Positions 6,390 through 28,630 of a stretch of 64,000 nucleotides of DNA are shown here, piece after piece; positions within the stretch are counted from its first letter, which is position 1, and the number at the start of each line of letters is the position of its first letter. The notes under the pieces were generated by a model. It was given only the letters and a program-made list of their open reading frames with translations. It had not been told where the DNA came from and did not search any database. The stretch comes from Rhodocyclus tenuis (GTDB lineage: Bacteria; Pseudomonadota; Gammaproteobacteria; Burkholderiales; Rhodocyclaceae): the NCBI RefSeq assembly GCF_014197755.1, contig NZ_JACIGE010000013.1, positions 1 through 64,000 of the forward strand. Reading direction: 5' to 3'. The position numbers and the translations under genes are program-made.

Positions 6390-8050
<1,661 letters not shown>

Positions 8051-8872
8051 TTACTCGGTCGCAACCAGGAAAACACTGGATGCCTTGAAGACCGCCGTCA
8101 CCGGCTGGCCGACCGCCAGACCCAGACGACCGACGCTGGCGTCGGTGATGACCGCGGTGATGACGTGCCGCCCGCCGGGCAGATTGATCGTCACCTCGGC
8201 GTTCACCGGTCCTTCATGGATATCGGCAATCGTGCCGCGGAAACGGTTGCGCGCCGAGATGCGCGCATCTTCCTCGACGACCAGCACGATCGACGATGCC
8301 TTGACGAAAGCCAGCACATCGCGGCCTTCGGCGAGGCCGAGCCCCTCGGCCGACTCGCGCGTGACGATCGCGGTCAGCGTCAGATCGGCATCGAGACGGA
8401 TGCTGACCTCGGTATCGACAGCGCCTTCCTTGAGCGCGACGACCGGACCGGCAAACTGGTTGCGGGCACTGCTCTTCATCGACATCCTCCTCAAGATCTG
8501 ACGGAAGCCGGCAGTGTCGACGGCGACATCCTGCTCCAGATTGCCGGTCAGCTTTTCCAATGCAAGTTGGTATTCCTGTTCCAGCGCGCGATAGAAAGCG
8601 ATCAGCCGCCGCCCGAAGGGCGTCAGCTCGGTGCCGCCGCCGTGACGGCCGCCGGCCGCGCGCGACACCAGCGGCTCGGGTGCCAGGTTGTTCATCGCAT
8701 CGACCGCGTCCCAGGCAGCCTTGTACGAAAAAGGCACGGCCTTGGCCGCCTGCGAGATCGAGCCGTGTTCGTCAATGGCTTCGAGCAGGCGGATGCGCTT
8801 GTCGCCGAGGAAGTTGCCGACCGCCGTTTCGATCAGCAACTTGCCGGTGAGTTTGGTGGCTTCTGATGTCAT
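8051..8872 (-). CDS. modE: ModE, molybdate-responsive transcriptional regulator
   Basis: ModE represses Mo-uptake genes when molybdate is bound and can activate Mo-enzyme genes. The 273-residue product has the N-terminal LysR-like winged helix-turn-helix (about 20-120), with GSISQAAKAVPFSYKAAWDAV and the family signature GGRHGGGTELTPFG. Two tandem TOBE (Mop) domains follow (about 133-200 and 205-271), each starting with a SARN-F-G motif. It starts at the ATG at 8872 and heads modE-modA-modD. A ModE-like palindrome lies about 50 bp upstream, suggesting autoregulation. Confidence 0.95.
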   Translation of the reverse strand: MTSEATKLTGKLLIETAVGNFLGDKRIRLLEAIDEHGSISQAAKAVPFSYKAAWDAVDAMNNLAPEPLVSRAAGGRHGGGTELTPFGRRLIAFYRALEQEYQLALEKLTGNLEQDVAVDTAGFRQILRRMSMKSSARNQFAGPVVALKEGAVDTEVSIRLDADLTLTAIVTRESAEGLGLAEGRDVLAFVKASSIVLVVEEDARISARNRFRGTIADIHEGPVNAEVTINLPGGRHVITAVITDASVGRLGLAVGQPVTAVFKASSVFLVATE

Positions 8873-8920
8873 CTATCTTTCTCTCCGGGCAGGCCGCAGA
8901 CCGCCCGATCGGTCAACTAG

Positions 8921-8944
8921 CGTTAGATACACAAGGATACAGCG
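8921..8944. promoter_or_regulatory. ModE-box-like palindrome upstream of modEAD
   Basis: The arms are CGTTAGAT and GATACAGCG separated by 7 bases (24 bp in all). This resembles the ModE operator CGNTATAT-N7-TAYATANCG known from E. coli modA (consensus recalled, not searched). It lies 49 bp before the modE start codon. Confidence 0.45.
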
Positions 8945-9020
8945 CTTTTCCGATCATGGCTCGCTCCGGCAGCCAGCAACGCGAGCGCTGTTCCCGGCAG
9001 CAAACCATCTGCCCTGCGCA

Positions 9021-9419
9021 TCATCGTGGCATCGAGCCGCTGAAACTCAGCGAGCGCCGCGCTTTTTCGGCGTAAGCAACGACATTGCGCAACACCAGCC
9101 AGCGCCGGTCGCGCAGGCGCCATGCCGCCAGCGTTTCGGCATAGACCGGCATCTCGAAAAACAGGTCGTCCTCGTCGGCAACGAGCTGCGTCAGGATGTA
9201 GCGACAGGCGCAAAAACAGGGCTCGTCGTGTTCGTCGTGACCGATGGTGCGCTCGGCCGACATCTCGTATTCACGAAAGACGTCGAAGCGCACTGGCTCG
9301 ATCGCCAGATCAGACCACGATGCGGGCAACTCCTGTCGCCAGCGGACGTCCTGCACATCGCGGCAGGAGCGACGGAGCTTGCCTGCGCTGCGCGCCTCAA
9401 TGTTGAGCGATGTACGCAT
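9021..9419 (-). CDS. Conserved-looking 132-residue protein of unknown function
   Basis: I do not recognise the family. The product is 132 residues, probably cytosolic, with an acidic middle rich in Asp/Glu/Cys/His (HDEHDEPCFCACRYI, about residues 73-87) and aromatic-rich segments before and after. The His/Cys/Asp cluster could bind a metal, but that is speculation. The frame is open 63 codons further upstream; I chose the ATG at 9419 because GGAGAG precedes it and the upstream part looks like non-coding translation. It lies between modE and the first TonB receptor and is transcribed with modE, so a link to Mo metabolism is possible by position only. Confidence 0.6.
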   Translation of the reverse strand: MRTSLNIEARSAGKLRRSCRDVQDVRWRQELPASWSDLAIEPVRFDVFREYEMSAERTIGHDEHDEPCFCACRYILTQLVADEDDLFFEMPVYAETLAAWRLRDRRWLVLRNVVAYAEKARRSLSFSGSMPR

Positions 9420-9729
9420 TTCTTCTCTCCTCGACTGTTCTTTGCGATCCGCCGTCGGCGAGGACGTCGCAACCGGCCGGAGCGATTTTCCGGGGCACCT
9501 GCGCGGCGTCCTGTGCGGAACCGAAGCCCGGGCGAAAGCTGCTTTCGCTATGTAGTCGAGCAAACAACGTACCACCCCGGCCGGTGCTGCGACCGGGAAG
9601 CGCGTCAAAGCATGCTTGCAGCGCCGTCGCGCCTGCCGCGGGAACGCTATCGGTCAACGCCCTGCCAGGCGCGCAAGTCAACAAGACAGGGCTGCGAGCC
9701 ACAGTTGCCATCTGTAAATTTTCCTACAG
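9420..9729. other. Gene-free stretch with inverted repeats
   Basis: No convincing gene is seen here on either strand. It contains a perfect short hairpin (GCGAAAG-CTG-CTTTCGC, 9532-9548) and several GC-rich inverted repeats around CCGGCCGG. It could be a structured 5' leader of the leftward 132-residue protein gene. I could not match it to a riboswitch class by eye. Confidence 0.35.
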
Positions 9730-9753
9730 CGTTGTGTCGTTAACTACATAACG
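9730..9753. promoter_or_regulatory. ModE-box-like palindrome (distal)
   Basis: The arms are CGTTGTGT and TACATAACG with a 7-base spacer, giving the 24-bp architecture of ModE operators; the right arm equals that of the E. coli modA operator as I remember it. A second symmetric core, CGTTA-N6-TAACG, lies within it. Confidence 0.5.
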
Positions 9754-9860
9754 TAACAATCCGGCCTGTGCCTTCGCCATGCCAGCGGCGTTGAAAACTG
9801 TCGCCGCTCCGCGCCAATCGGGATGTTGAAGCCATGCGCTCCGGAATGCCCGCCACCTAC

Positions 9861-9884
9861 CGTTATGGTGGCACATATATTGCG
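9861..9884. promoter_or_regulatory. ModE-box-like palindrome (proximal to TonB receptor)
   Basis: The arms are CGTTATGG and TATATTGCG with a 7-base spacer, the same 24-bp layout as the boxes at 8921 and 9730. It ends about 100 bp before the receptor start codon, a sensible place for a repressor site. Confidence 0.5.
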
Positions 9885-9986
9885 CTCACCAGAGCATCGC
9901 CACGTCACCCCGGCCAATGGGGTTGGCCGAAAAAGGGTGGCCGGCGTCACATTCGTCCTGATCCAGCTCACCAAGAAAGAGTGCAG

Positions 9987-12023
9987 ATGAAACTGAAAAA
10001 CTATCCCGTTCCATGCCTGCTTAGCCTCGCGGTATCGCTGGCACTGCAGGGGCTGGCGCACGCCGGCGACAGCGCAAGCTCCGACAGCAAGGTGTTCACC
10101 CTTGGCCAGATCTCGGTAACGGCGGCGCGCATCGACGAGAACCCGGTCGGCACGGCAACGCTCGACGCCGAGCAGTTGCGCGACTTCGACAAGGACGGCC
10201 TCGCCGACGCAGTCAATCTCGTTCCCGGCGTCGCCTCGACCGCCGGCGCCGGCAACCGCAACGAGGCGCTGATCAGCGTGCGCGGTTTCGATCGCTGGCA
10301 GGTGCCGCTGCTGATGGACGGCATCCGCCTCTATCTGCCGGCCGACAACCGCATCGACTTTGACCGCTTCCTGACGCCTGACCTCTCCGAAATCCAGATT
10401 TCCAAGGGCTACGTGTCGGTACTCAACGGCCCGGACGGCATGGGCGGCGCGATCAATCTGGTGACGCGCAAGCCGGTCAAACCGTTCGAAGGCGAAGTGC
10501 GGGCTTCGATGGCGCTCGGCAACGATGGTCGCTACAACGGCAACACGCTCTATACCAATCTCGGTGGGCGCAGCGACATCGGCTACTACCAGGTCAGCGT
10601 CGAGCAGCGCGACGTGGACCACTGGCAGCTATCCCGGGATTTCAAGCCGACCGTCGCCGAGGACGGTGGCAACCGCGACCACACCAGCAAGAACGACTGG
10701 CGCGTCAACCTCAAGGCCGGCATCACGCCCAACGCCACCGACGAGTACTCGCTCAACTTCGTCAAGCAGAGCGGTGAGAAGCACGGTATCGGCGCGGTAA
10801 CCGGCATGTCGACGATAAGCACCTGGGACTGGCCGAAATGGGACACCTGGAGCCTGTACTGGCTGTCGCACACGCAGATCACCGACAAGACCTACGTCAA
10901 GACCAAGGCCTACTACAACACCTTCGAGAATGACCTGGTCGCCTACACCAATGTCACGCTGAACACGAAGAACTGGACAAGCTCCTACGACGACAACGCC
11001 AAGGGCGCCAGCGTCGAACTCGGTACCGATCACTTCGCGCAGCAGACGCTGAAGACGGCGCTGCACTTCCGCCGCGACGAGCACACCGAATGGCAGCTGA
11101 CACACGCCAGCGGTTTCACCGAGCCGAAACAGACGACGATCGAGGACACGCTATCGCTGGCCGTCGAGGACACCTGGCATGTCACGCCGAAACTCGATCT
11201 GGTCGGCGGCATCAGCCGCGACGCGCGCTTCTCCAGGCAGGCGCAGGAATACGCGAGCAATGTGCTGTTCAACCAGCCGATCGCCGACAGTTTCGCCACC
11301 AACTACCAGGCGGCGGCGATCTACCGCTATCGCGACAGCGGCAAGCTGCACCTGTCGGCATCGAACCGCACGCGCTTCCCGACCATGTTCGAGCGCTTCA
11401 GTTCGCGCTTCGGCGGTGCCATCTCCAATCCCGGACTCAAACCGGAACGCGCGCTCAATCTCGAACTCGGTGTCGCCGACGAGCTGCTGCCGGGTCTGCG
11501 CGGCGAGGCGGCGCTGTTCCACAGCCGTGTCGACGATGCCATCCAGTCGGTGCAGGTTCTCTACAACGGCAACTATTACGGGCAGAACCAGAACGTCGGC
11601 GAAGCGACGTTCAAAGGCATCGAACTCGGGCTGAAGGCGCGTTTCTCCGACTCGCTCGAGGTCGGCGGCAACTACACCTACATCCACACGCACATCAACA
11701 ACCCCAACGACTCGAGCGCACGGCTGACGACGACGCCGCAGAACAAGGCCTTCCTCTATGCCAAGTGGCGGCCGCTCGCGGCACTCAGCGTCATCCCCAA
11801 TCTTGAGTACGCGAGCCCGCGCTGGTCGTCCACGGCGGTCGGGACTGGCTACGTGCAGACCGGCGAATACGCGCTGCTCAACGTCAAGCTTGAATACAAG
11901 CTGCGCCGCGACTGGGATGTCTCGCTCTCCGCACGCAACCTGCTCGACAAGAATTATCAGCTCGTCGACGGCTATCCGCAGGAAGGCCGCAACTTCCTCA
12001 TCGCCACCCGCTTCCAGTTCTGA
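9987..12023 (+). CDS. TonB-dependent outer-membrane receptor (candidate Mo-compound receptor)
   Basis: The product is 678 residues with a signal peptide ending at HAG. A TonB-box-like stretch (VFTLGQISVTA) and a plug domain (about 45-160, with VNLVPGV, ALISVRGFD, GPDGMGGAINLVTRKP) come next. The 22-strand barrel ends in the aromatic residue Phe (ATRFQF) that marks outer-membrane proteins. The start is the ATG at 9987, placed just before the signal peptide. Similar receptors import siderophores, cobalamin or metal chelates. Two ModE-like boxes upstream and downstream oxyanion-type binding proteins suggest that the substrate is molybdate, tungstate or a Mo-chelate; this is inference. It starts an apparent operon reaching to exbD at 20547. 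Confidence 0.85.
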   Translation: MKLKNYPVPCLLSLAVSLALQGLAHAGDSASSDSKVFTLGQISVTAARIDENPVGTATLDAEQLRDFDKDGLADAVNLVPGVASTAGAGNRNEALISVRGFDRWQVPLLMDGIRLYLPADNRIDFDRFLTPDLSEIQISKGYVSVLNGPDGMGGAINLVTRKPVKPFEGEVRASMALGNDGRYNGNTLYTNLGGRSDIGYYQVSVEQRDVDHWQLSRDFKPTVAEDGGNRDHTSKNDWRVNLKAGITPNATDEYSLNFVKQSGEKHGIGAVTGMSTISTWDWPKWDTWSLYWLSHTQITDKTYVKTKAYYNTFENDLVAYTNVTLNTKNWTSSYDDNAKGASVELGTDHFAQQTLKTALHFRRDEHTEWQLTHASGFTEPKQTTIEDTLSLAVEDTWHVTPKLDLVGGISRDARFSRQAQEYASNVLFNQPIADSFATNYQAAAIYRYRDSGKLHLSASNRTRFPTMFERFSSRFGGAISNPGLKPERALNLELGVADELLPGLRGEAALFHSRVDDAIQSVQVLYNGNYYGQNQNVGEATFKGIELGLKARFSDSLEVGGNYTYIHTHINNPNDSSARLTTTPQNKAFLYAKWRPLAALSVIPNLEYASPRWSSTAVGTGYVQTGEYALLNVKLEYKLRRDWDVSLSARNLLDKNYQLVDGYPQEGRNFLIATRFQF

Positions 12024-12038
12024 ACCCAAGGGAAAATC

Positions 12039-12596
12039 ATGATCAAGACATTTCGCGCCGCACTCCTCATCCCCGCCTTTGCCGCCATCGCCTTCGCCTT
12101 CTCCGGCAACGCCATGGCACACAGCAAGGCCGCCGATCCCTCGAAGTACGTCACGCAAAGCATCGCCGTTGCCGGCGCCGTCGAGCACAAGCTCAGGCTC
12201 AGCGTCGACGACCTGAAGGCCTTCCCGCCATCGCAGGTAAGCGACACACCGCTCGTCTGCCAGTCGGGCGCCAAGGTCGGACAGCTGGAGAACATCAAGG
12301 GCGTCCTCCTGCGCGACGTTCTCGAAAAAGCCAGCGTCGTCTCGAAAAACCACAACGACGTCAAGAAGACGGTCGTCATCGCCAAGGCATCCGACGGCTA
12401 CAAGGTCGTATTTTCCTGGAGCGAGCTCTTCAACTCGCCGCTTGGCGAAGGCGTCATCGTCTTCTTCGAGAAGGACGGCAAGGCGCTTGAAGACGACGAA
12501 GGCCGGATCGCCCTGGTATCGACCAAGGACATCCGTACCGGCCCGCGCCACGTCAAATGGCTCAAGGCTATCGAGGTGAAGAAGATCGTCGACTGA
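12039..12596 (+). CDS. Small periplasmic molybdopterin-binding-domain (sulfite-oxidase-fold) protein
   Basis: The 185-residue product has a signal peptide (cleavage near AMAHSK) and one domain resembling the oxidoreductase molybdopterin-binding fold (PF00174). Visible are a conserved-type Cys in TPLVCQSG, LENIKGVLLRDVLEKA, DGYKVVFSWSELFN and RTGPRHVKWLKAIEVKK near the end. Such stand-alone domains occur in periplasmic proteins; whether this one holds Moco, Mo or only retains the fold cannot be told from sequence. It lies 15 bp after the first receptor and 44 bp before the second, clearly inside the transport operon, so it may be a periplasmic Mo- or chelate-handling factor. Confidence 0.75.
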   Translation: MIKTFRAALLIPAFAAIAFAFSGNAMAHSKAADPSKYVTQSIAVAGAVEHKLRLSVDDLKAFPPSQVSDTPLVCQSGAKVGQLENIKGVLLRDVLEKASVVSKNHNDVKKTVVIAKASDGYKVVFSWSELFNSPLGEGVIVFFEKDGKALEDDEGRIALVSTKDIRTGPRHVKWLKAIEVKKIVD

Positions 12597-12640
12597 GCCG
12601 GCCCGCGCCGCCAGGCGCAGTACGCAAAAAGGGAGAAATA

Positions 12641-14887
12641 ATGAACAAGGCACCTCGCCGCGCGGCATTCCGTCGCCGGCTTATCGCCACGCTGGTGGCG
12701 TCACTCTGTGGCGCTATCGCGCACGCCGAAGACACACTGCTCGGCACGGTCGAAGTCTCGGCCGATGCCGAAAAAGTGTCAGCAGCCGGCATGCAGCCAG
12801 ACCGTAGCAGCCCGTCGACGGCGTATGTCGTCGATCAGGAAGCGATGCGCCTCTACGACACGCCGGGCGGCACCAATCCCTATACGGCGCTCGCCGAGAT
12901 TCCTGGCGTCAAGGTAAGCACGGTCGACGCCTACGGACTGAACAACACGCAGGGCGGGCAGAAGGGCCTGCGCGTACGCGGCGAGGTGAGCACGCACGGT
13001 GTCGCCGGCACGTTCGAGGGCCTGCCGCTCGGCGGCCCCGGCCCCGGACCGGGCTATCTGTTCCTGTTCGACAAGGAGAACATCGAGAGCATCCGCTTCG
13101 CGCAAGGCGCCATTTCGGCCGACCAGACGGCCTTGTTCACGTCCTTCGGCGCCATCGACACCCGCCTGCTCTGGCCGCGCGAAGAAGCCCGCCGCCAGAT
13201 CAGCTCGAGCATCGGCAGCGAGGGTTTCCACCGCAACTTCGTGCGTCTCGACAGCGGCCGTCTCGCCAGTGGCACGGCGCTTTTCTTCTCGGCATCCGAT
13301 ACCAAGGCCAACAAATGGCGCGGCTACGGCGACGCGCCCGCCAACCGCGCCAATTACGAGTTCGCGCTCGACCAGCGCGTGGGCGATCTGCGCGTCAAGC
13401 TTGCACTGGCGCAGAACGACCAGTCGCAGAACAACTACAAGGCGCTGACCTACGCGCAGGCGACCGACCTCAATCGTTTCCGCAACTACGACTACGTCAA
13501 CAATCCGGCCAACTCCGACCACTACAACTACAACCGGCAGGACTTCCGCAATCAGGTGGCACTCGCCGAGATCGAATACGCCTTCTCGCCGCAGACGACA
13601 CTGACGTTCAAGCCCTATTACGCGAAGGAAGAAGGCTATTACCTCTATGCCAGCGTTCCAGCTAGCCAGCCCAACAACACCACTCAGGTGCAGAAGTGGC
13701 TCTTCGACCACACGACTTACGGCCTCAGCAGCGAGTTGCGCACCGTACTCGCCGACACCGACCTCAAGTTCGGCTATTCGTGGACTTCGACCGAGCCGCC
13801 GGGGCCGCCAACGACGCGCAAGCAATACCGGATCGTCAACGGCAATCTCGTCTTCCAGCAGTGGTCGCTGCTGTCAAAGGTCGTCGACCGGCACGAGTTC
13901 GAGAATTTCTATGCGACGGCGAAGCACAGTTTCGGCGATCTGACGCTGCGCGGCGGCCTGCGTTACGCGGTCGAGACGCTGCCTGGCATCAATGCCTACA
14001 ACACCAATGGCATCGGCGATGTCTCGGCTGACGAGGCGATCTCCAGCGCCACGCTCAACGCGACGCGCAGCGTGAAAAGCCGCAGTTTCGGCAACTGGTT
14101 GCCGGAAGTCGGCGTCTCCTACGACCTGCGTCCGGGCGTCGAGGTGCACGCCAGCCTCGGCCGCAACATCGGCGCACCGTCGTTCGACGCCTTCAACCAG
14201 GCGCCGGCCGGCGGCATCACCACCAGCCAGCAGTACTGGGACCGGATCGAACCCGAACTGTCGACCAACCTCGACATCGGCGCCCGCCTGCGCTTCGACA
14301 AGGTCTACATCGACCCGACGATTTACTTCTCGCGCACGCGCAACAAGGCGGTCAGCGTCTTCAGCTCGACCACCAACACGGTGTACGGGCAGAACGTCGG
14401 CAAGACACAGGGCAGCGGCTTCCAGCTCGCCGCCGGCTGGTCGGCGACGAACACGCTGCAGCTGTTCACCGCGCTGTCGTACAGCCTGTCGTCGTTCACC
14501 GAGGATGTGCGCACCACCGGTGGCGCCATCCTGCCGGTCGAAGGCAAACAGCTGCCCGACGTGCCGAAGTGGATGGGCAACGTCGGCGCCGCGTGGCGGC
14601 AGAACGGTTTCACCGTCGCGCCGATCGTCCAGTACGTCGGTCCGCGCTGGGCGACGACCGACTACACCCAACGTGTGCCCGGCTATTTCACCGCCGACCT
14701 GACGCTCGGCTACGGCGAGAAGAGTCACTGGGGCAAATGGGACGTCTCGCTGGCGATCCTGAACGTCTTTGACCGCAAGTACATCGGCCAGATCAGCACC
14801 AGCGAAGTCAACACCTCGGCCACCGGCGCCATCTACTACCCCGGTGCACCGCGCACGGCGGTGGCCTCCGTCAGCCTCACTTTCTAA
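12641..14887 (+). CDS. Second TonB-dependent outer-membrane receptor
   Basis: The product is 748 residues with a signal peptide ending near AHAED. The plug domain (about 40-170) contains NPYTALAEIPGVKV and QGGQKGLRVRGE, and the barrel ends with Phe (VASVSLTF). The start at 12641 has a clean GGGAGA ribosome site 6 bp upstream. It differs clearly from the first receptor (for example GGPGPGPG in the plug), so the two are not a recent duplication. It is followed 10 bp later by the BtuF-like gene. In this context it should deliver the substrate, or a second form of it, to the ABC importer encoded next. Confidence 0.87.
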   Translation: MNKAPRRAAFRRRLIATLVASLCGAIAHAEDTLLGTVEVSADAEKVSAAGMQPDRSSPSTAYVVDQEAMRLYDTPGGTNPYTALAEIPGVKVSTVDAYGLNNTQGGQKGLRVRGEVSTHGVAGTFEGLPLGGPGPGPGYLFLFDKENIESIRFAQGAISADQTALFTSFGAIDTRLLWPREEARRQISSSIGSEGFHRNFVRLDSGRLASGTALFFSASDTKANKWRGYGDAPANRANYEFALDQRVGDLRVKLALAQNDQSQNNYKALTYAQATDLNRFRNYDYVNNPANSDHYNYNRQDFRNQVALAEIEYAFSPQTTLTFKPYYAKEEGYYLYASVPASQPNNTTQVQKWLFDHTTYGLSSELRTVLADTDLKFGYSWTSTEPPGPPTTRKQYRIVNGNLVFQQWSLLSKVVDRHEFENFYATAKHSFGDLTLRGGLRYAVETLPGINAYNTNGIGDVSADEAISSATLNATRSVKSRSFGNWLPEVGVSYDLRPGVEVHASLGRNIGAPSFDAFNQAPAGGITTSQQYWDRIEPELSTNLDIGARLRFDKVYIDPTIYFSRTRNKAVSVFSSTTNTVYGQNVGKTQGSGFQLAAGWSATNTLQLFTALSYSLSSFTEDVRTTGGAILPVEGKQLPDVPKWMGNVGAAWRQNGFTVAPIVQYVGPRWATTDYTQRVPGYFTADLTLGYGEKSHWGKWDVSLAILNVFDRKYIGQISTSEVNTSATGAIYYPGAPRTAVASVSLTF

Positions 14888-14897
14888 GGAGTCCAGC

Positions 14898-15914
14898 ATG
14901 AACCGATTGCTTGTTACCCTGCTCGCCGCATTGACGCTGAGTCTCGGCGCGCAGGCGCGCGAAATCACCGACATGGCCGGGCGCCACGTCGTCATTCCCG
15001 ATCGCATCGAACGCGTTTTCGGCGCCGCGCCGCCGCTCAACGTGCTGCTGCACGCCGTTGCCCCGGAAACGATGCTCGGGCTGTCCTTCCCGGTACCGCC
15101 CGAAGCGCGCCCGTACTTCCCCGAACGCCTGCGCGGTCTGCCGGTGGTCGGCGGCGTGTTCGGCATGGGCCAGCAGATGAATCCGGAAAGCGTGCTGATG
15201 CAGAAGCCGGATGTGGCGCTGGCGTGGAAGAGCCCGTTCATCGACCAGGCGCGCATCGAGTCGGCCTTTGCCCGCATCGGTCTGCCGGTGGTTTTCGTCC
15301 AGCTCGACACCACGGCCGAATGGCCGGCAGCCTTGCGCTTTACCGGCCGCCTGCTCGGCCACGAGGCCAAGGCGGAAGAGGAAGCGCGTGCCGTCGAGCA
15401 GGTGCTGGCACGCGTCGGCAAGGTGGTCAACGCGGTCCCGGAAGCGCAGCGGCCACGCGTCTACTACGCCGAAGGCCCGGACGGTCTGGCCACCGACTGT
15501 CACCGCTCATTCCACACCGAAGCGATTGAACTCGCCGGCGGCTATAACGTTTTCCGCTGCGAGCCCAAGGACCACATGGGTATGGAGCGGGTCAGCATCG
15601 AACAGGTGCTGGCCTTCGCGCCGGACATCATCATCGCGCAGGACCGCAATTTCGTCGCCAGCGTCGGCAAGGACGCGCGCTGGCGCGGCGTCAAGGCGGT
15701 ACAGGCCGGACGCGTGCTGGTGGTGCCGCGCTGGCCGCACAACTGGATCGACCGGCCGCCATCAATCATGCGCGTCCTCGGCATCCAGTGGCTGGCCAAC
15801 CAGTTCTATCCGCAGGCCTATCCCTTCGAGTTGCGCCGCGAAACACGTGAGTTCTACCAGCGTTTCCTCGGCGTCAGCCTGAGCGATGCCGAGATTGACG
15901 CGCTCTTCCGCTGA
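14898..15914 (+). CDS. BtuF/MolA-type periplasmic binding protein of an ABC importer
   Basis: The 338-residue product has a signal peptide (cut near AQAREI) and the class III (helical-backbone) binding-protein fold. REITDMAGRHVVIPDRIERVF opens the first lobe, PDVALAWKS and a long linking helix lie in the middle, and IEQVLAFAPDIIIAQD and VPRWPHNWIDRPPS form the second lobe. This class serves cobalamin, siderophores, haem and, in Haemophilus MolA, molybdate/tungstate. The start at 14898 has AAGGAG upstream. It overlaps the permease start by 29 bp. The substrate is inferred from operon context only. Confidence 0.87.
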   Translation: MNRLLVTLLAALTLSLGAQAREITDMAGRHVVIPDRIERVFGAAPPLNVLLHAVAPETMLGLSFPVPPEARPYFPERLRGLPVVGGVFGMGQQMNPESVLMQKPDVALAWKSPFIDQARIESAFARIGLPVVFVQLDTTAEWPAALRFTGRLLGHEAKAEEEARAVEQVLARVGKVVNAVPEAQRPRVYYAEGPDGLATDCHRSFHTEAIELAGGYNVFRCEPKDHMGMERVSIEQVLAFAPDIIIAQDRNFVASVGKDARWRGVKAVQAGRVLVVPRWPHNWIDRPPSIMRVLGIQWLANQFYPQAYPFELRRETREFYQRFLGVSLSDAEIDALFR

Positions 15915-16947
15915 AGCACTGCCGCCGCCACGGCCGCTGCCCGGCTTCTCCTGGCCGGGACCGCTCCTGCTCATGGTGGCGGCGGCGATGCTGCTGGCGC
16001 TGGCCTACGGACGCTATCCGCTGGCGCCGAGCGAGGTAGTGCAGTACTTCCTCGCCGCCGGCGGCTTTGCCGAAATGGAGCCGGAACGACAGGCGCTGCT
16101 GCACAACCTGATCGTCGACATCCGCCTGCCGCGTGTGCTCGCGGCGGTTTTGGTCGGTGCCGGGCTGGCGGTTTCCGGTGCCGCCTTCCAGTCGGTATTC
16201 CGCAATCCGCTGGTTTCACCCGGGCTGCTCGGCGTTCTCGCCGGCGCAGCGGCCGGCGCCGCGCTCGGCATGCTGCTCTCGGGCAACTGGTGGGTGATGC
16301 AGCTGGCGGCGTTCGCCATGGGCGTCGCGGCGGTCGGCGTCGGCGTCGGTATCGCCGCGCTGTTCGGACACTCGCTGGTCATGCTGGTGCTCGGCGGCAT
16401 CATCAGCGGCTCGCTGTTCACGGCCATCCTGTCGCTGATCAAGTATCTCGCCGACCCGTACAACCAGCTGCCGGCGATCGTGTACTGGCTGATGGGCAGC
16501 CTGGCGATGGCCGAGCTTGGCGACATCGGCCGGCTGGCGGTGCCGATGCTGGTCGGCATCGTTTTCCTCGCCAGCCTCGGCCGCGCGCTCGACGCGCTGG
16601 CGATGGGCGACGACGAGGCGCGCGCGCTCGGCGTGCCGGTCACCGCCGTGCGCTACGGCGTCATCGCCGCGGCAACGCTGGTGTCGGCGCTGACCGTGTC
16701 GCTCTCCGGAATCATCGGCTGGGTCGGCCTGCTGGTGCCGCACGTCGCGCGCCTGCTCACCGGTCCGGGCAACGTCCGCCTGCTGCCGGCCAGCGCCTGC
16801 TTGGGCGCGATCTTCCTGCTGCTCGCCGATGGCATTGCGCGCAACCTGTCGGAAACCGAAATCCCGATCGGCATCGTCACCGAGCTGCTCGGCATCCCCG
16901 CCTTCCTGCTCGTGCTGCACCGCGCCCGGCGCAGCTGGGTGACGTGA
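15886..16947 (+). CDS. BtuC/MolB-type ABC importer permease
   Basis: The 353-residue integral inner-membrane protein of the FecCD/BtuC family should have about ten membrane helices. Typical motifs are RLPRVLAAVLVGAGLAVSGAAFQ (about 83-105), NPLVSPGLLGVLAGA (about 107-121), LGGIISGS, GWVGLLVPHVARLL and the C-terminal ELLGIPAFLLVL. It pairs with the ATPase that follows (stop and start overlap in TGATG) and the binding protein before it. The start is either the ATG at 15886 or a TTG at 15895; both lie within the preceding gene. Confidence 0.92.
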   Translation: MPRLTRSSAEALPPPRPLPGFSWPGPLLLMVAAAMLLALAYGRYPLAPSEVVQYFLAAGGFAEMEPERQALLHNLIVDIRLPRVLAAVLVGAGLAVSGAAFQSVFRNPLVSPGLLGVLAGAAAGAALGMLLSGNWWVMQLAAFAMGVAAVGVGVGIAALFGHSLVMLVLGGIISGSLFTAILSLIKYLADPYNQLPAIVYWLMGSLAMAELGDIGRLAVPMLVGIVFLASLGRALDALAMGDDEARALGVPVTAVRYGVIAAATLVSALTVSLSGIIGWVGLLVPHVARLLTGPGNVRLLPASACLGAIFLLLADGIARNLSETEIPIGIVTELLGIPAFLLVLHRARRSWVT

Positions 16948-17741
16948 TGCTGCAAGCCCGCCAACTGCATTTCCACTACGGTCGCAAGATCATCCTCGCC
17001 GGCGTCGACCTCGATCTGGCGCCAGGCGAACTCGTCTGCCTGCTCGGCAGCAACGGCGCCGGCAAGAGCACCCTGCTGCGCCTGCTGCTCGGCCTGATCA
17101 AGCCGTCAGTCGGCGAGGTGCTGCTTGCCGGCCGCCCGATCGGCGCCTTTACCCGACGCGCAGTGGCGACGCAAATCGCCTACGTGCCGCAAGGCCACGC
17201 CGCGCCCTTTCCCTACACGGTGCGCGAAGTGGTTCTGCTCGGCCGCCTGCCGAGCGGCAGCCTGTTCCGCGCACCGGGCGCCGAAGACCACGCGCACGTT
17301 ACCGAGGTGCTCGCCCGGATGGGCATCAGCCGGCTGGCCGACCGCCCATACACCGAGGTTTCCGGCGGCGAACGGCAGCTGGCGCTGATCGCGCGCGCAC
17401 TGGCGCAGGGCGCCCGCCTGCTGATCATGGACGAGCCGGGCAACGGACTCGATTTCGGCCACCAGCTGCGTCTGCTCGACTGCCTGCTCGAACTGAGCGA
17501 AGCCGGTTTCGGCATTCTCATGACCACGCACAACCCGGCGCATGTCGTCATGGGCTCGAACCGCGTCGTCGTTCTCGAAAACGGCGCCATCACCGCCGAT
17601 GGCGCGGCCGCACAGGTGCTGACGCCGGCCGCCGTTGCCGCGCTCTACCGCATCGACCCCGAGCGGCTGACGCAGGACCCGCTCAGCGGCACGATCAGCG
17701 TGCGCGCAAAACCCAGGATGAACGATGCGCACGCACACTGA
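16947..17741 (+). CDS. BtuD/MolC-type ABC importer ATPase
   Basis: The 264-residue ABC ATPase energises the adjoining permease. It has Walker A GSNGAGKS (about 35), a Q-loop in AYVPQGH, the signature VSGGERQLALIARAL, Walker B LLIMDEP and the switch His in TTHNPAHV. In the D-loop region the usual T-x-x-L-D reads GNGLDFGHQ, as in other FecE/BtuD-type ATPases. Start and stop are embedded in tight overlaps with its neighbours (TGATG before, 17 bp after), so the three importer genes form one transcript. Confidence 0.93.
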   Translation: MLQARQLHFHYGRKIILAGVDLDLAPGELVCLLGSNGAGKSTLLRLLLGLIKPSVGEVLLAGRPIGAFTRRAVATQIAYVPQGHAAPFPYTVREVVLLGRLPSGSLFRAPGAEDHAHVTEVLARMGISRLADRPYTEVSGGERQLALIARALAQGARLLIMDEPGNGLDFGHQLRLLDCLLELSEAGFGILMTTHNPAHVVMGSNRVVVLENGAITADGAAAQVLTPAAVAALYRIDPERLTQDPLSGTISVRAKPRMNDAHAH

Positions 17742-18669
17742 TCGACGGCAAATGCCGGCGCCCGCCGGCCCCCCCCGCCGACTCGCCCGGCAGTTGCTAG
17801 CGCTGCTGCTGGCAACGCTGCTGCTGGCGCAGATCGCCGCGGCGGCGACCGCCAGCGTCGAATCGCCAGCCGCGACACCGGCTGCCACGCCCCCGGTGCG
17901 CGTCGCCGTGGTCGGCGGTCTGGTGCTGTGCGGCGTCTGGCCGGCGCTTGCCGCGCTGGCCGAACAGGCCACGGGGCTGAGCATCGAAACCGTCGGCGCC
18001 GCGCCGAAGGAAGGCGTCGTTCCGCTGTTCCGCGCTGGCGAAGCCGACCTGCTGATCATCCACGGCAGCGACGAAGCCTACGCCCTACTCGCTGCCGGCG
18101 ACGCAGCACCGCTGCGCGCCTGGGCATTCAACGAACACGTCATCGTCGGCCCGCTGGCGGACCCGGCCGGCGTGCGCGGCGTCGCCAACGGCGCCGAGGC
18201 GATCCGGCGTATCGTCGCCGCCGACGCGCCGCTGATGGGCTTCCGCGATCCGGGCAGTTTCACCATCACGCACGCGCTGTTCCGCACTGCCGGCCGCAAA
18301 CCCGGCCCGCGGCAGCAGCTTTTCGACGACGGCGAGCGGCCGCAGGACGTGCTCGTCGCCGCTGCGCGCCACGGCGCCTACGCCGTCGTCGGCCACATTC
18401 CCGTCGCCTTCGGCAAGATGCCGTCGACCGGCACGCGCGTGCTGCTCGCCGGCGATCCGGCGATGCGCCGCGTCTATGTTGTCGTCGAACCGGGACCACG
18501 CCACCCGGCCGACACCGCCCGACGCGAACGCGCGCACCGGCTGGCCGACTACCTGCTCGGCAGCGCAGGCCAGCGCGATCTGCTGGCGGCCGATCACGCC
18601 GCTGGCGGGCCGTGGATATTCCCGCTGCCGGCAGCGGCAGTTGCCGGCAGCGCAGAGGATTCGCGATGA
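17725..18669 (+). CDS. TupA-like periplasmic oxyanion-binding protein
   Basis: The 314-residue secreted protein resembles the TupA type of tungstate/molybdate-binding proteins. After a signal peptide (hydrophobic run about 25-40) come VPLFRAGEADLLIIHGSDEA (about 90-109) and FNEHVIVGPLADPAGVRG, matching the TupA pattern FVIVGP-DPAG. EAIRRIVAADAPLMGFRDPGSFT follows, where TupA has a ligand-binding loop of the SRGDDSGT type. Here that loop reads FRDPGSF, so ligand contacts may differ. A second binding protein in a class II importer operon is unusual. The coding start contains eight C in a row (17769-17776). It overlaps tonB by ATGA. Confidence 0.75.
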   Translation: MRTHTDRRQMPAPAGPPRRLARQLLALLLATLLLAQIAAAATASVESPAATPAATPPVRVAVVGGLVLCGVWPALAALAEQATGLSIETVGAAPKEGVVPLFRAGEADLLIIHGSDEAYALLAAGDAAPLRAWAFNEHVIVGPLADPAGVRGVANGAEAIRRIVAADAPLMGFRDPGSFTITHALFRTAGRKPGPRQQLFDDGERPQDVLVAAARHGAYAVVGHIPVAFGKMPSTGTRVLLAGDPAMRRVYVVVEPGPRHPADTARRERAHRLADYLLGSAGQRDLLAADHAAGGPWIFPLPAAAVAGSAEDSR

Positions 18670-19394
18670 GCAGTCTGGTCGATTCAGCCCGGGCTGTCGC
18701 CGCAGAACGCCAGCCGACTGCGCCGCGAAAACGCTCGCCGGCTTCGCTGAACCGGCTGATTGGCGTGCTCGTCGTCGCTGGCCACGCCTCGCTGCTGGCC
18801 CTGTTGCCGACCGGGCTGATCTCGCCGGCCAGCGGATCAACGCCGGCAGTGCTCGTTGCCGAGTGGATCGACGCTGCGGCCACCGCCCCCGCCGAGAAAG
18901 CCATCCGGCCACTGCCGCCGATGCCGGTGCCGACGCCGAAAACGCAAGCGGTGCCGAAAAGGCCGGCAGCGGAAAGCCCGAGCCCACCGCTGACCAGCAC
19001 GGCTGCGCCGGCGCCAGCGGCCGCGACCGTCGCGGCGAGCGTCAGCAACGCGGCGGCTACGGAAAGCGCCGCCGCGACGGCAAGCGCCGAAGCCGCCCCC
19101 GCCGGCAAAGTGTCGCCGCCGCGCTTTGACGCCGATTACCTGAAAAACCCGCCGCCGGCCTATCCGCGCACGGCGCGCGAACGCGGCGAGGCCGGGCTGG
19201 TCGTCCTGCGCGTCCTCGTCTCGCGCGATGGCCTGCCGCTGGACATTGACGTGCAGCGCAGCAGCGGCTACGAGCGGCTCGACGACGCCGCGCTCGCCGC
19301 CGTTCGTCATTGGCAGTTCCTGCCGGCGCGGCAAGGCGGCGAGGCGGTCGCCGCGCGCGTTCTGGTCCCCATTTCCTTCAACTTGCGGAGCTAA
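18666..19394 (+). CDS. tonB: TonB, energy-transducing periplasm-spanning protein
   Basis: TonB couples the inner-membrane proton gradient to outer-membrane receptors. The 242-residue product has a cytoplasmic N-terminus, a membrane anchor (about 31-50, IGVLVVAGHASLLALLP), a Pro/Ala-rich spacer (about 80-150) and the C-terminal TonB domain starting at NPPPAYPRTARERGEAGLVV with the YP motif. The domain ends WQFLPARQGGEAV and VPISFNLRS. It is the first of a tonB-exbB-exbD set inside the uptake operon, which argues that this route has its own energising complex. Confidence 0.93.
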   Translation: MSSLVDSARAVAAERQPTAPRKRSPASLNRLIGVLVVAGHASLLALLPTGLISPASGSTPAVLVAEWIDAAATAPAEKAIRPLPPMPVPTPKTQAVPKRPAAESPSPPLTSTAAPAPAAATVAASVSNAAATESAAATASAEAAPAGKVSPPRFDADYLKNPPPAYPRTARERGEAGLVVLRVLVSRDGLPLDIDVQRSSGYERLDDAALAAVRHWQFLPARQGGEAVAARVLVPISFNLRS

Positions 19395-19396
19395 GC

Positions 19397-20131
19397 ATGG
19401 CAGATTCCGGCCTTCTTCATTTTCTTGCCGGCGCCGACACGCTGGCCCGTGTCGTCCTCGCACTGCTGCTGCTGATGTCGTTGCTGTCCTGGTATCAGAT
19501 CCTCGGCAAGGGCCTGCGCACGCTGCTCGATACCCGCCGACAGGGCCGCTTCCTGGCGGTTTTCCGGCAGTGCCGCACGGTGGGCGAGTGCGAGCGGCAA
19601 CTGCCGGCCGACACCGATGACAGCAGCCCGGCCGCTGCCAGGGTCGCCGCCGCGGCCTTTGCCGCTGGCCGGCGCTGGCGTCTGGGCGGCGGTGATCTCG
19701 CCTCGGCAGCGGGTGGCGAATTCATCGAGCGCGCCGTCTATCGCGAAACGGCAAAAGCCCGCGTCGCGCTGGAGAGCGGCCTCAGCACGCTGGCGGCAAT
19801 TGCCTCGACCGCGCCCTTCGTCGGCCTGTTCGGCACAGTCTGCAGCATCTACCACGCGCTGCTGGCGATCGGCCAGAGCGGACAGGGAGGCATCGAACGT
19901 GTCGCCGGGCCGGTCGCCGAGAGTCTGATCATGACCGCCATCGGCCTCGCCGTCGCCATCCCGGCCGCGTTGGCGCACAACGCCTTCGTGCGTAGCGGCC
20001 GCCTCGCCACGGCCGAACTTGAGGATTTCGGCGAGGAACTGCAGAGCCTGCTGGCGAGCGGCGTGGCGGCACCGCAAGCCGGTCAGGGCGCTCCCGCCTG
20101 GCCGCTTGGCGTCAGCCGGGAGGCGACATGA
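19397..20131 (+). CDS. exbB: ExbB/MotA-TolQ-type proton channel subunit
   Basis: The 244-residue inner-membrane protein has three predicted helices: one near the N-terminus (about 15-35), and two in the conserved MotA/TolQ/ExbB region (ASTAPFVGLFGTVCSIYHALLAIG and VAESLIMTAIGLAVAIPAALAHNAF). It forms the TonB motor with ExbD. The start at 19397 follows the tonB stop by two bases and has GGAG upstream. It overlaps exbD by ATGA. Confidence 0.92.
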   Translation: MADSGLLHFLAGADTLARVVLALLLLMSLLSWYQILGKGLRTLLDTRRQGRFLAVFRQCRTVGECERQLPADTDDSSPAAARVAAAAFAAGRRWRLGGGDLASAAGGEFIERAVYRETAKARVALESGLSTLAAIASTAPFVGLFGTVCSIYHALLAIGQSGQGGIERVAGPVAESLIMTAIGLAVAIPAALAHNAFVRSGRLATAELEDFGEELQSLLASGVAAPQAGQGAPAWPLGVSREAT

Positions 20132-20547
20132 CGCGACGCTACCGGCAGCACGAAGACAGCTTCGGCCCGGCGCGCGCCGAGCTCAATCTGGTGCCACTGA
20201 TCGACGTCATGCTGGTGCTGCTGGTAATCGTGATGATCGCCTCGCCCTGGCTGACACACGCCGTCACCATCGAACTGCCGCGCGTCAGCAGCGCGACGAA
20301 ACCGCCGCCACCGGCGCACGTTGAACTCGATATCGGCGCCAAGGGCGAACTCTACTGGCAGAACAATCCACTGGCGGCGTCGGAGCTGGCCGACTACGTC
20401 GCGCAGGCGGTGGCGCGCGATGCCGAGGTCGAGCTGCGCATCCACGCCGACCGCCGCGCCGCTTACGAACATGTGGCGCGGGCAATGGCCATTGCTTCGC
20501 GCGGCGGCATCGGCCGCATCGGCTTCGTCAGCGACCCGGAACGCTGA
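20128..20547 (+). CDS. exbD: ExbD/TolR-type motor subunit
   Basis: The 139-residue protein has one N-terminal membrane helix carrying the essential Asp in NLVPLIDVMLVLLVIVMIA, followed by a periplasmic domain with VELRIHADRRAAYEHVARAM. It completes the TonB-ExbB-ExbD complex and is the last gene of the uptake operon; the nifB promoter region follows. Confidence 0.92.
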   Translation: MTRRYRQHEDSFGPARAELNLVPLIDVMLVLLVIVMIASPWLTHAVTIELPRVSSATKPPPPAHVELDIGAKGELYWQNNPLAASELADYVAQAVARDAEVELRIHADRRAAYEHVARAMAIASRGGIGRIGFVSDPER

Positions 20548-20605
20548 GCGGCGCACGATCATTAGCCGCGATCGCCACGCCCTGCCTGCACGCGCCGTAC
20601 ATTTC

Positions 20606-20621
20606 TGTCGCGAGCCGCACA
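20606..20621. promoter_or_regulatory. NifA upstream activator sequence 1 for nifB
   Basis: TGTCGCGAGCCGCACA matches TGT-N10-ACA exactly and lies 108 bp upstream of the nifB -24/-12 promoter. Confidence 0.65.
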
Positions 20622-20639
20622 AAAGCGTTACGGCGGCGC

Positions 20640-20655
20640 TGTACGGTTAGCGACA
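20640..20655. promoter_or_regulatory. NifA upstream activator sequence 2 for nifB
   Basis: TGTACGGTTAGCGACA is a second exact TGT-N10-ACA site, 34 bp (about three helical turns) after the first, so both would face the same side of the DNA. Confidence 0.65.
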
Positions 20656-20728
20656 GGTGTTTTGGCGGCGACCGGCACATCATCAAATACCTTATACGGA
20701 TCAAACGCTTAATGAATCTCCGGAAAGC

Positions 20729-20744
20729 AGGCACGGGCATTGCT
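20729..20744 (+). promoter_or_regulatory. Sigma-54 (-24/-12) promoter for nifB
   Basis: AGGCACGGGCATTGCT matches TGGCACGNNNNTTGCW at all but the first base, with GG-N10-GC spacing. It ends 37 bp before the nifB ATG. With the two NifA sites upstream this is the clearest nif promoter in the window. Confidence 0.85.
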
Positions 20745-20781
20745 AAATCACTCCCGACATCCTTGCATGCGGGAGAGCAAT

Positions 20782-22386
20782 ATGGATCATCACCTCACCG
20801 GCCAGTCTGGTTCGGGCAGCTGTAGTGGTAGCGGCGGCGGCTGTGGCAGCGGCGCCCCCGGCCTTGATGCCCTCGGCGAAGACGTCCGGCGCAAGGTCGC
20901 CGAACACCCCTGCTATTCCGAAGGCGCGCATCACCACTTCGCGCGCATGCACGCGGCCGTCGCGCCGGCCTGCAACATCCAGTGCAATTACTGTAATCGC
21001 AAGTTCGACTGTTCCAACGAATCGCGTCCGGGTGTCGTTTCCGAAGTGCTGACGCCCGATCAGGCGGTGCTGAAGACGCTCGCCGTCGCTGCCGCCATCC
21101 CGCAGATGTCGGTGCTCGGCATCGCCGGCCCCGGCGACCCCCTGGCCAACCCGGAACGCACTTTCGCCGTCTTCCGCGAACTCGCCGTCAAGGCGCCCGA
21201 CCTCAAGCTGTGTGTGTCGACCAACGGCCTCGCCCTGCCCGAGCATGTCGAGGAACTCGCTCGCCTCAAGGTCGATCACGTCACCATCACCATCAACTGC
21301 CTCGACCCCGACATCGGCGCCAAAATCTACCCGTGGATCTTCTGGAACCACCGCCGCGTGCGCGGCCGCGAAGCCGCAGAAATCCTCATCGCCCAGCAAC
21401 AGAAGGGCCTCGAGATGCTGGTCGAGCGCGGCATCCTGGTGAAGGTCAATTCGGTGATGATTCCGGGAATCAATGACCAGCATCTGGCCGAAGTCTCGCG
21501 TCACGTACGTGCCAAGGGTGCCTTCCTGCACAACGTCATGCCGCTGATCGCGGCGCCCGAGCACGGCACCTATTTCGGCCTGACCGGCCAGCGCAGCCCG
21601 TCGCCGCAGGAGCTGCAAGCCCTGCAGGACGAGTGCGCCGGCGACATGAACATGATGCGGCACTGCCGCCAGTGCCGCGCCGACGCCGTCGGCCTGCTTG
21701 GCGAGGACCGCAGCAGCGAATTCTCGCTGGCGAAGATCGCCGGCATGGAAATCGACCATGAAGCAGCGCTGGCACGCCGCGTCGCCTACCGCGCGAAGAT
21801 CGAGGCCGAGGCCGCCGAGAAGAAGGCGCGCGCCCACGCCGTGCCACCGGCAGCGAAGATCAAGCAGGTGATCGCGCTGCACCCGCGGCCGGCGAACGGC
21901 AAGGAAACGGCGCCGGCAACGAGCAGCGACGCGCCGGTCACCAGCATCGCGCTGGCGGCTGCCACAACGCCCTCGGCGCCGCCGGCGCAGCCGCGCCCGG
22001 CGCTGATCGCCGTCGCCACCGAAGGCGGCGGCATCATCAACCAGCACTTCGGCCACGCACGCGAATTCCTCGTCTATGAAGCCTCGGCAGCCGGCGTGCG
22101 CTTCATCGGCCGGCGCGGCGTCGACCTCTATTGCGCCGGCGAAGACAGCTGTGGCGACGACGGCGAGAGCAAGCTCACGAAAACCCTGCGCGCACTGGCC
22201 GGCTGCGAAGTCATTCTCTGCTCGCGCATCGGCATCGACCCCTGGCGCGCGCTCGAAGAGGCCGGCATCACGCCGAACAGCGAACGCGCGCTCGAACCGA
22301 TCGAGGAAGCCGTTCTCGCCACCTGGCAGGAACTCGCCGCCAGCGGCCGGCTCAACGCGCCGGCGCCGCAACTGCGCCGCGCCTGA
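20782..22386 (+). CDS. nifB: NifB, radical-SAM FeMo-cofactor core synthase
   Basis: NifB builds the [8Fe-9S-C] NifB-co precursor of FeMo-co. The 534-residue product has a Gly/Ser/Cys-rich N-terminus and the radical-SAM motif CNIQCNYC (about residue 66) followed by NRKFDC. Further family segments are GIAGPGDPLANP, STNGLALPEHV, VKVNSVMIPGIND and the CRQCRADAVG cysteine motif. An Ala/Pro-rich linker leads to a C-terminal NifX/NafY-like domain (about 410-520, EGGGIINQHFGHAREFLVYE). I chose the ATG at 20782 (GGGAGA 5 bp upstream); ATG 20767 is an alternative. It heads a NifA-driven operon. Confidence 0.97.
   Translation: MDHHLTGQSGSGSCSGSGGGCGSGAPGLDALGEDVRRKVAEHPCYSEGAHHHFARMHAAVAPACNIQCNYCNRKFDCSNESRPGVVSEVLTPDQAVLKTLAVAAAIPQMSVLGIAGPGDPLANPERTFAVFRELAVKAPDLKLCVSTNGLALPEHVEELARLKVDHVTITINCLDPDIGAKIYPWIFWNHRRVRGREAAEILIAQQQKGLEMLVERGILVKVNSVMIPGINDQHLAEVSRHVRAKGAFLHNVMPLIAAPEHGTYFGLTGQRSPSPQELQALQDECAGDMNMMRHCRQCRADAVGLLGEDRSSEFSLAKIAGMEIDHEAALARRVAYRAKIEAEAAEKKARAHAVPPAAKIKQVIALHPRPANGKETAPATSSDAPVTSIALAAATTPSAPPAQPRPALIAVATEGGGIINQHFGHAREFLVYEASAAGVRFIGRRGVDLYCAGEDSCGDDGESKLTKTLRALAGCEVILCSRIGIDPWRALEEAGITPNSERALEPIEEAVLATWQELAASGRLNAPAPQLRRA

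Positions 22387-27993: not shown

Positions 27994-28630
<637 letters not shown>

Follow-up and report, generated by a model that had tools for sequence, protein, structure and literature searches.

The stretch analysed here comprises the first 64,000 nucleotides of contig NZ_JACIGE010000013.1 of Rhodocyclus tenuis (assembly GCF_014197755.1) and is called the window throughout. At positions 9987-20547 it carries a rightward transport operon that combines two TonB-dependent receptors, an ATP-binding cassette (ABC) importer and its own TonB-ExbB-ExbD, and that is separated by a 1.1-kb gap from a modE-modA-modD group running the other way. We were interested in whether this operon could be a molybdenum (Mo) uptake line across both membranes under the control of ModE and NifA.

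Gene content of the operon

Neighbouring genes of the operon overlap or are spaced by at most 44 bp. A preliminary description had assigned their classes from the letters alone, and each class it named was confirmed by Pfam or NCBIfam models, the SBP_bac_11 match of the TupA-like protein (20.5 bits) lying under the 25-bit cut-off. The genes are as follows:

9987..12023, plus strand: TonB-dependent receptor 1 (TBDT1), plug and barrel; PF00593 131.7 bits, PF07715 58.8 bits
12039..12596, plus strand: small protein of the sulfite-oxidase/molybdopterin family; PF00174 42.7 bits (cut-off 24)
12641..14887, plus strand: TonB-dependent receptor 2; PF00593 131.9 bits
14898..15914, plus strand: class III solute-binding protein, MolA-like; PF01497 (Peripla_BP_2) 60.1 bits; ATG start at 14898
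15886..16947, plus strand: FecCD-family permease of the MolB clade; PF01032 272 bits
16944..17741, plus strand: ABC ATPase of the importer; PF00005 109.6 bits; start at GTG 16944 or ATG 16947
17725..18669, plus strand: TupA-fold protein, probably periplasmic, without TTTS motif; SBP_bac_11, fold match
18666..19394, plus strand: TonB; TIGR01352 69.4 bits (cut-off 27.1), PF03544 (TonB_C) 83.9 bits
19397..20131, plus strand: ExbB; PF01618 (MotA_ExbB) 89.2 bits; ATG start at 19397
20128..20547, plus strand: ExbD; PF02472 92.5 bits

The start of TBDT1 at 9987 is the most likely one and was picked from AAGAAAGAG-N5-ATG together with a signal peptide. No model passed its cut-off for TBDT1 among the 25 NCBIfam models listed of 27 matched, nor did any of the five matched by receptor 2. 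The nearest solved relatives of receptor 2 are weak (YncD 46.6 bits, PqqU 45.8 bits), and TBDT1 has none at the chosen threshold of 1e-20. The PF00174 protein, which is probably located in the periplasm, has no convincing solved relative (best E 0.22); related genes were found in seven of the fetched loci of relatives.

ModE-like boxes and a sigma-54-type core in the gap

Boxes were scored against the 20-position ModE consensus of Escherichia coli, as given in the accessible part of PMC545781; the cut-off was at least 13 in the window, whose host belongs to the Rhodocyclaceae, and at least 14 in relatives. The gap between modE and the operon contains the following elements:

8919..8946, no strand assigned: ModE box on the modE side, 15/20
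9544..9571, no strand assigned: ModE box 1, 13/20, enclosing TGT-N10-ACA at 9551-9566
9713..9728, plus strand: NifA-type upstream site TGT-N10-ACA, pattern match
9728..9755, no strand assigned: ModE box 2, 13/20, enclosing TGT-N10-ACA at 9733-9748
9859..9886, no strand assigned: ModE box 3, 14/20, overlying the sigma-54 core
9869..9883, plus strand: sigma-54 -24/-12 core TGGCAC-N5-TTGC, the only exact match in the window

All four boxes rank among the five best sites of the window, and shuffled windows held a mean of 0.34 sites scoring at least 13. When the gap (8873-9986) was subjected to 2000 dinucleotide shuffles, 1962 contained no such site, 38 contained one and none contained two or more; when the letters of the palindrome were permuted 150 times, 142 of the resulting patterns had no site in the gap and eight had one. 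The ModE-like palindromes that the preliminary description had seen in front of the operon are thus present beyond chance, but they number four and not three. Across the host genome, a derived pattern allowing up to three mismatches gave seven ModE-like sites: four lie in the gap, and six of the seven adjoin Mo genes.

The best site of the genome (one mismatch; G000:C1:55911-55934, L032:5912-5935) separates the gene of a NifA-like activator from mop at the Fe-only nitrogenase cluster, provided that the start of the activator is the one indicated by its conserved part. Another box lies about 40 bases ahead of the likely start of nifQ (PF04891) and directly follows a sigma-54-like element with one mismatch; in this cluster (G000:C10:41176-44139, L193:7170-10139) nifQ is followed by a small protein without named family, modB (TIGR02141 over cut-off) and modC (identified by eye), so that modBC lie apart from modA, on a different contig. 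The seventh site (G000:C14:592-615) has no nearby gene under a simple open reading frame filter.

The sigma-54 core sits inside ModE box 3 and ends 104 bases upstream of the proposed start codon. Cores with one mismatch occur in the window at chance level (six in all, 6.25 expected). The pattern TGT-N10-ACA, which we take to be the NifA signature, was found nine times in the window against 4.7 expected, a weak excess taken alone. The window promoter has no VnfA-type site; two homologous loci (L043 and L059) do have one. No sigma-70 promoter was found in 8000-20900, where terminators numbered 12 compared to 9.6 in shuffles. Since the sigma-54 core and TGT-N10-ACA sites overlap ModE boxes, activation by NifA and repression by Mo-loaded ModE are predicted for the lineage of the window.

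Conservation in relatives

We compared 89 homologous loci, nine from nine of 12 genomes of relatives and the best 80 of 242 permease matches in named genomes, with 40 control loci. The window itself is uncounted among the 89, and two genomes (G119 and G141) were left out for their short contigs; the loci are interrelated, some end at contig ends, and two (L037 and L057) share one bin. The controls are other FecCD loci from window relatives only, hand-chosen for long contigs; 26 of the 40 form a single group in the permease tree, and they stand for FecCD loci in general. The nearest relatives of the permease are found in metagenome-assembled genomes of Rhodocyclales, Comamonadaceae and Zoogloeaceae, and the 89 loci include Campylobacterota and Thermodesulfobacteriota.

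The 89 loci carry 149 boxes where ten shuffles per locus predict 23.2, and 57 loci are boxed against 13.9 expected; the controls carry 11 boxes (2.3 expected) in six loci (2.2 expected). Merging of overlapping placements leaves 143 and eight boxes, respectively. Over the 500-bp stretches at the 5′ ends of system genes there are 66 boxes, a density of 0.281 per kb, compared to 0.054 elsewhere and 0.023 in control windows. Such a 5′ end box is present in 37 of the 89 loci, whereas 150 permuted palindromes yielded, in the same regions, 10.0 sites on average and never more than 33, in at most 22 loci. Genes for ModE, Mop, ModA, ModB or ModD occur in 28 of the 89 loci versus one of the 40 controls (Fisher p 7e-5); for ModE or its DNA-binding domain the numbers are 19 and none (p 4e-4). 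Both p values are optimistic because the loci are related, and the ModB matches may include TupB. Boxed homologous operons also stand beside modE, modA or modD with no nif gene in view, for example in L098, L100 and L106.

A sigma-54-like element near a box was seen in none of the 40 control loci. Among the homologous loci, three show arrangements that are similar, not identical, to the window promoter: in L037 one ModE box is composite, differing from the sigma-54 core at a single position, and another is overlapped by a TGT-N10-ACA site; in L036 an exact core is flanked on both sides by ModE boxes, the upstream one overlapping TGT-N10-ACA; and L043 combines an exact core, ModE boxes and a palindrome fitting NifA-type and VnfA-type sites. 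This palindrome (L043:6388-6403) also fits the ModE box and stands 54 bp ahead of the exact core, in a locus that encodes a NifA-like activator and nitrogenase-like D and K genes.

Plasmid relatives were also found. On pFER3 of Paracoccus ferrooxidans (L200:6929-15964) the genes run receptor, methyltransferase, permease, ATPase and binding protein, followed by a second permease set, and are annotated 'TonB-dependent siderophore receptor' and 'iron ABC transporter permease'. This plasmid has a 15/20 box before the second permease gene, a 12/20 site (below threshold) before the receptor and two 13/20 sites elsewhere; a Methylocystis plasmid relative has no ModE-like site above 12.

Relationships of the permease and the binding protein

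The solved chain most similar to the permease is MolB of Haemophilus influenzae (2nq2, 213.5 bits); FhuB (177.7 bits over its two halves) and BtuC (123.7 bits) score lower. In a permease tree of 140 rows, made by a quick method and rooted at the midpoint, MolB falls into a 96-row group with 95 target permeases (support of 99 in the Shimodaira-Hasegawa-like approximate likelihood ratio test), and BtuC, HmuU, BhuU and all 40 controls fall outside it; one target row lies outside as well, alongside two controls. The importer had been called BtuFCD-like: a FecCD/class III importer is indeed present, but its permease groups with MolB and not with BtuC.

The binding protein is closest in sequence to 4pag (248.5 bits), a Sulfurospirillum protein whose title names no ligand, and scores 63.9 bits with 4ovk, 63.3 with the iron-siderophore protein YiuA, 61.1 with MolA (3psa) and 36.1 with BtuF. 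Its AlphaFold model (mean predicted local distance difference test score, pLDDT, 96.1) matches 4pag with a Z score of 39.5, 4hn9, which is titled iron transporter protein, with 29.9, 4ovk with 29.3, MolA with 28.0 (root-mean-square deviation, rmsd, 2.8 over 297 residues), YiuA with at most 25.4 and BtuF with 20.0. MolA is thus the structurally nearest binding protein whose title names a Mo ligand. The closest characterised importer overall is MolBCA, a molybdate carrier; the binding protein alone does not settle it. Taken together, the conserved boxes, the linkage to mod genes and the kinship with MolB and MolA support a Mo-directed route across two membranes under predicted ModE control, as the preliminary description had proposed.

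The fold classes of the operon are also those of BtuBFCD, and it could in principle serve the uptake of cobalamin, heme or copper and lie next to modE by chance, a reading we regard as extremely unlikely. A cobalamin riboswitch upstream had been named as a sign that would speak for it; at gathering score none was found in the window or in eight related loci, compared to seven of seven control loci, the samples (eight of 89 and seven of 40) being hand-picked. A BtuC-type locus that does have a riboswitch is found elsewhere in the genome (L153), and the receptors score far under the cut-offs for B12, copper and hemin. A cobalamin system was therefore rejected on the riboswitch, the receptor scores and the permease tree.

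The TupA-fold protein

The product of 17725..18669 had been described as a TupA-like oxyanion-binding protein. It scores 42.8 bits with TupA (5my5), and its model (pLDDT 88.5) has TupA 5my5 as best match (Z 26.3, rmsd 2.5, 236 residues), so the fold assignment holds for the model; it is, however, not a canonical TupA. According to the accessible part of PMC5517513, TupA is characterised by a TTTS motif and Arg118. An alignment with nine other proteins shows no TTTS in the window protein, which has VVGG at that place; its residue in the Arg118 column is Phe, and an Arg stands one column further on, beside a gap. Five of the nine are of the window kind (L058, L061, L077, L023 and L065), L097 is more distant and three have STTS. 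The STTS type (L025:11725-12450, L027:8745-9476, L029:14307-15035) lies beside ModB/ModC-type genes, and the VxGG type is part of a TonB-receptor cluster in the window, L058, L061 and L065. From these sequences we distinguish two families of TupA-fold proteins. A canonical tungstate binder was rejected, as the TTTS motif is missing; the protein may have another Mo species, or a ligand, as its cargo.

These data bear on a further alternative, namely that the system transports tungsten, or Mo and W alike, given that ModE responds to both oxyanions. The operon does include a TupA-fold protein, and MolA binds molybdate and tungstate, as stated in the accessible text of PMC4031551. Against this stand the VVGG sequence where the L025, L027 and L029 proteins have STTS, the Phe in the Arg118 column, notwithstanding the adjacent Arg, and the position of the operon within a nif island, adjoining modA and nifB. 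We consider a tungsten system distinctly unlikely.

Candidate ligands and recurrent neighbour genes

Bare molybdate should pass porins, and TonB-dependent transport would therefore fit a bulkier or very scarce complex. The preliminary description had thought of catecholate chelates. Production of these by the strain itself is not borne out: the genome has no non-ribosomal peptide synthetase (NRPS) condensation domain over cut-off (20.8 versus 30.6 bits) and no dihydroxybenzoate-AMP ligase over cut-off (best 182.5 versus 723.55). A self-made catecholate Mo-chelator is thus unlikely; a ligand might be made by a non-NRPS route.

Several enzyme families recur near the transport genes of relatives: a luciferase-like monooxygenase in 25 of 89 loci (none of the 40 controls), a S-adenosylmethionine methyltransferase in 31 (one control), FmdE in 21, a DUF364/DUF4213 'heavy-metal chelation' protein in 19 and a globin in 16 (no control in each case). 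These counts come from single-sequence searches, and the family names from one representative each. Examples of such neighbours of MolB-clade permeases are L075:7595-8395, L069:7928-8908, L103:8298-8873, L106:11510-12133 and L044:9509-11899. Ligand-type genes of these five kinds are absent from the window operon.

A tentative extension, to which we give somewhat less than even odds, is that the operon belongs to a widespread TonB pathway, undescribed so far and controlled by ModE, that serves the uptake of an organic Mo complex (a 'molybdophore'). Such a pathway might be present in Pseudomonadota, Thermodesulfobacteriota and Campylobacterota, and the neighbour enzymes might make, modify or break the ligand; the window operon could then be a scavenger version that lacks the ligand enzymes.

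Genomic surroundings and iron as a possible cargo

The genes facing away from the operon are the following:

8051..8872, minus strand: ModE, full length (DNA-binding domain plus two Mop domains); TIGR00637 103.2 bits (cut-off 98.5)
7256..8014, minus strand: ModA, molybdate-binding protein; TIGR01256 253.4 bits (cut-off 62.5)
6390..7259, minus strand: ModD; TIGR01334 237.5 bits (cut-off 178.85)

ModE also matches TIGR00638 (144.1 bits) in two stretches, which indicates paired Mop domains. The group described earlier as modEAD does run opposite to the operon; its precise content is modE-modA-modD, while modB and modC lie on another contig. Beyond it on the left is nifA, on the plus strand. Directly downstream of the operon lies nifB, with its own TGT-N10-ACA sites and a sigma-54 element with one mismatch, and beyond nifB there are genes for an ArsC-family protein, a flavodiiron-type protein, a 2Fe-2S ferredoxin, an ADP-ribosylglycohydrolase and, further on, a flavodoxin. 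On the same contig, nifH, nifD and nifK (the latter identified by eye) follow just right of the window. The host genome (3.85 Mb) is that of a phototroph, with reaction-centre and bacteriochlorophyll-type proteins recognised by eye, and encodes two nitrogenases, a Mo enzyme and an Fe-only one, the latter recognised by AnfD (1096.5 bits) and AnfK (956.7 bits), each over its cut-off. At the head of the Fe-only cluster stand a two-domain Mop protein and, divergently oriented, an activator resembling NifA, whose 467.3 bits fall short of the 528.85 required by the NifA model.

The second nitrogenase opens the possibility that the operon is controlled by ModE yet carries iron, as a ferric siderophore or similar: Mo shortage would bring the Fe-only enzyme into use, and more iron would be needed. 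TonB receptors and FecCD importers mostly serve iron, of the 12 plasmid relatives listed, nine bear the annotation 'iron ABC transporter permease', and YiuA scores slightly above MolA with the binding protein by sequence. Moreover, in Azotobacter vinelandii VnfA1 induces TonB-receptor/ABC operons only when Mo and V are absent, according to the accessible part of PMC9542535. On the other hand, the same boxes front homologous operons, for example in L098, L100 and L106, that stand beside mod genes with no nif gene in view; the permease is kin to MolB, and by structure MolA ranks above YiuA. In addition, with a Fur consensus that we assume to apply and up to three mismatches, no Fur-like site was found at the operon in a window-wide search, and Fur control of the operon was rejected. 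All in all, we regard iron as a fairly unlikely cargo. The sole Fur-like site of the window (28008-28026, three mismatches, none expected) is just upstream of the flavodoxin gene and suggests, by its sequence, iron control of that gene.

Proposed mechanism and its weighing

We put the probability at roughly three in four that the operon is a dedicated Mo uptake line across both membranes, controlled by ModE and NifA; the binding of ModE and NifA, the direction of control and the substrate (molybdate, a Mo-chelate or tungstate) are what we infer from sequence. At low fixed nitrogen and low oxygen, NifA together with sigma-54 would initiate transcription near position 9895. If molybdate is abundant in the cytoplasm, ModE loaded with Mo would cover the -24/-12 element from box 3 and the NifA-type sites from boxes 1 and 2, and thereby block the promoter. 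Under Mo shortage, both receptors, powered by the TonB-ExbB-ExbD of the operon, would import Mo into the periplasm, as molybdate or, more likely, bound to an organic ligand from outside. The MolA-like protein would pass it to the MolB-type ABC importer, and the TupA-fold and PF00174 proteins may act as periplasmic carriers or ligand handlers.

Several observations weigh against this proposal. The gap boxes match only 13-15 of 20 consensus positions, and the best single score among the permuted palindromes was likewise 15. The reversed control pattern gave four matches in the genome compared to seven, so the count alone is weak and the argument rests on the positions of the sites. The sigma-54 core departs from the longer consensus YTGGCACN5TTGCW at both of its outer letters. 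A genome scan for that consensus with one mismatch gave 82 matches versus 65 in the control, and the site at 9869 is unlisted because it has two mismatches. Among the 89 loci, 32 have no box of at least 14, and a sigma-54-like element within 60 bp of a box was seen for only ten boxes in eight loci, two of them exact. MolB joins its group in the tree by a long branch, and the binding protein places YiuA level with MolA by sequence. The YiuA score and the longer sigma-54 consensus lower our confidence in the Mo route and raise it for iron.

The suggested co-occurrence of the permease with modE and nif was not significant over 150 relatives including the own genome, either for ModE (8/12 versus 72/138, p 0.26) or for nifD (2/12 versus 42/138). 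Furthermore, the congener G002 has ModE and nifD and no such permease at E up to 1e-60, so the system looks dispensable for diazotrophy. The role had been tied to diazotrophs; a restriction to them is not supported, since the system is also found outside nitrogen fixers and does not co-occur significantly with nifD. The system is accessory and not a nif component.

Comparison with known systems

The importer resembles MolBCA of Haemophilus influenzae (HI1470-1472) in its FecCD-type permease, its class III binding protein and its place in the same tree cluster; unlike MolBCA, the window system also has receptors with their TonB-ExbBD, two additional proteins and a predicted control by ModE and sigma-54. 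In Rhodobacter capsulatus, morAB is NifA-dependent and, as shown by experiment, repressed by the ModE-like MopA/MopB with Mo (accessible part of PMC6925177), the same promoter logic as predicted for the window operon. In contrast to the latter, MorABC resembles ModABC, and the accessible text of that paper mentions no TonB receptor. Two further results limit the case for scavenging: MolBCA is of low affinity and its loss was without effect at low molybdate (accessible part of PMC4031551), and deletion of MorABC left nitrogenase activity unaffected (PMC6925177, likewise). Kinship and control alone thus do not prove high-affinity scavenging.

The class B operons of A. vinelandii (Avin_30860, Avin_39890 and Avin_47130) combine TonB receptor and ABC genes with sigma-54 dependence and are on without Mo and V (accessible part of PMC9542535). 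They are likened here by description, not by sequence, and differ from the window operon in being activated by VnfA1, according to the same source. Azomonas relatives carry the permease (L059 and L102). With BtuB-BtuFCD the operon shares the two-membrane, TonB-powered layout; that system differs in its riboswitch control and its permease branch, and the control loci are rarely linked to mod genes. With the E. coli-type ModE regulon (modABC) it shares the regulator family and the box consensus, and the accessible text of PMC545781 mentions no outer-membrane component for that regulon.

To our knowledge, bacterial Mo uptake has been described almost only for the inner membrane. Our search of the open literature, which did not extend to RegPrecise or subscription journals, found no description of a ModE-controlled TonB route. 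The parts of the operon (TonB receptors, a MolBC-type importer, ModE and a NifA-type promoter) are known, and it is their combination for which no description was found there. A shortage of Mo can hold back both nitrogen fixation and nitrate respiration; if true, a TonB route controlled by ModE would show how Gram-negative cells draw trace Mo through the outer membrane. It would predict a Mo-binding small molecule, correct the 'iron transporter' annotations of relatives and provide a promoter that reads nitrogen and molybdenum status jointly.

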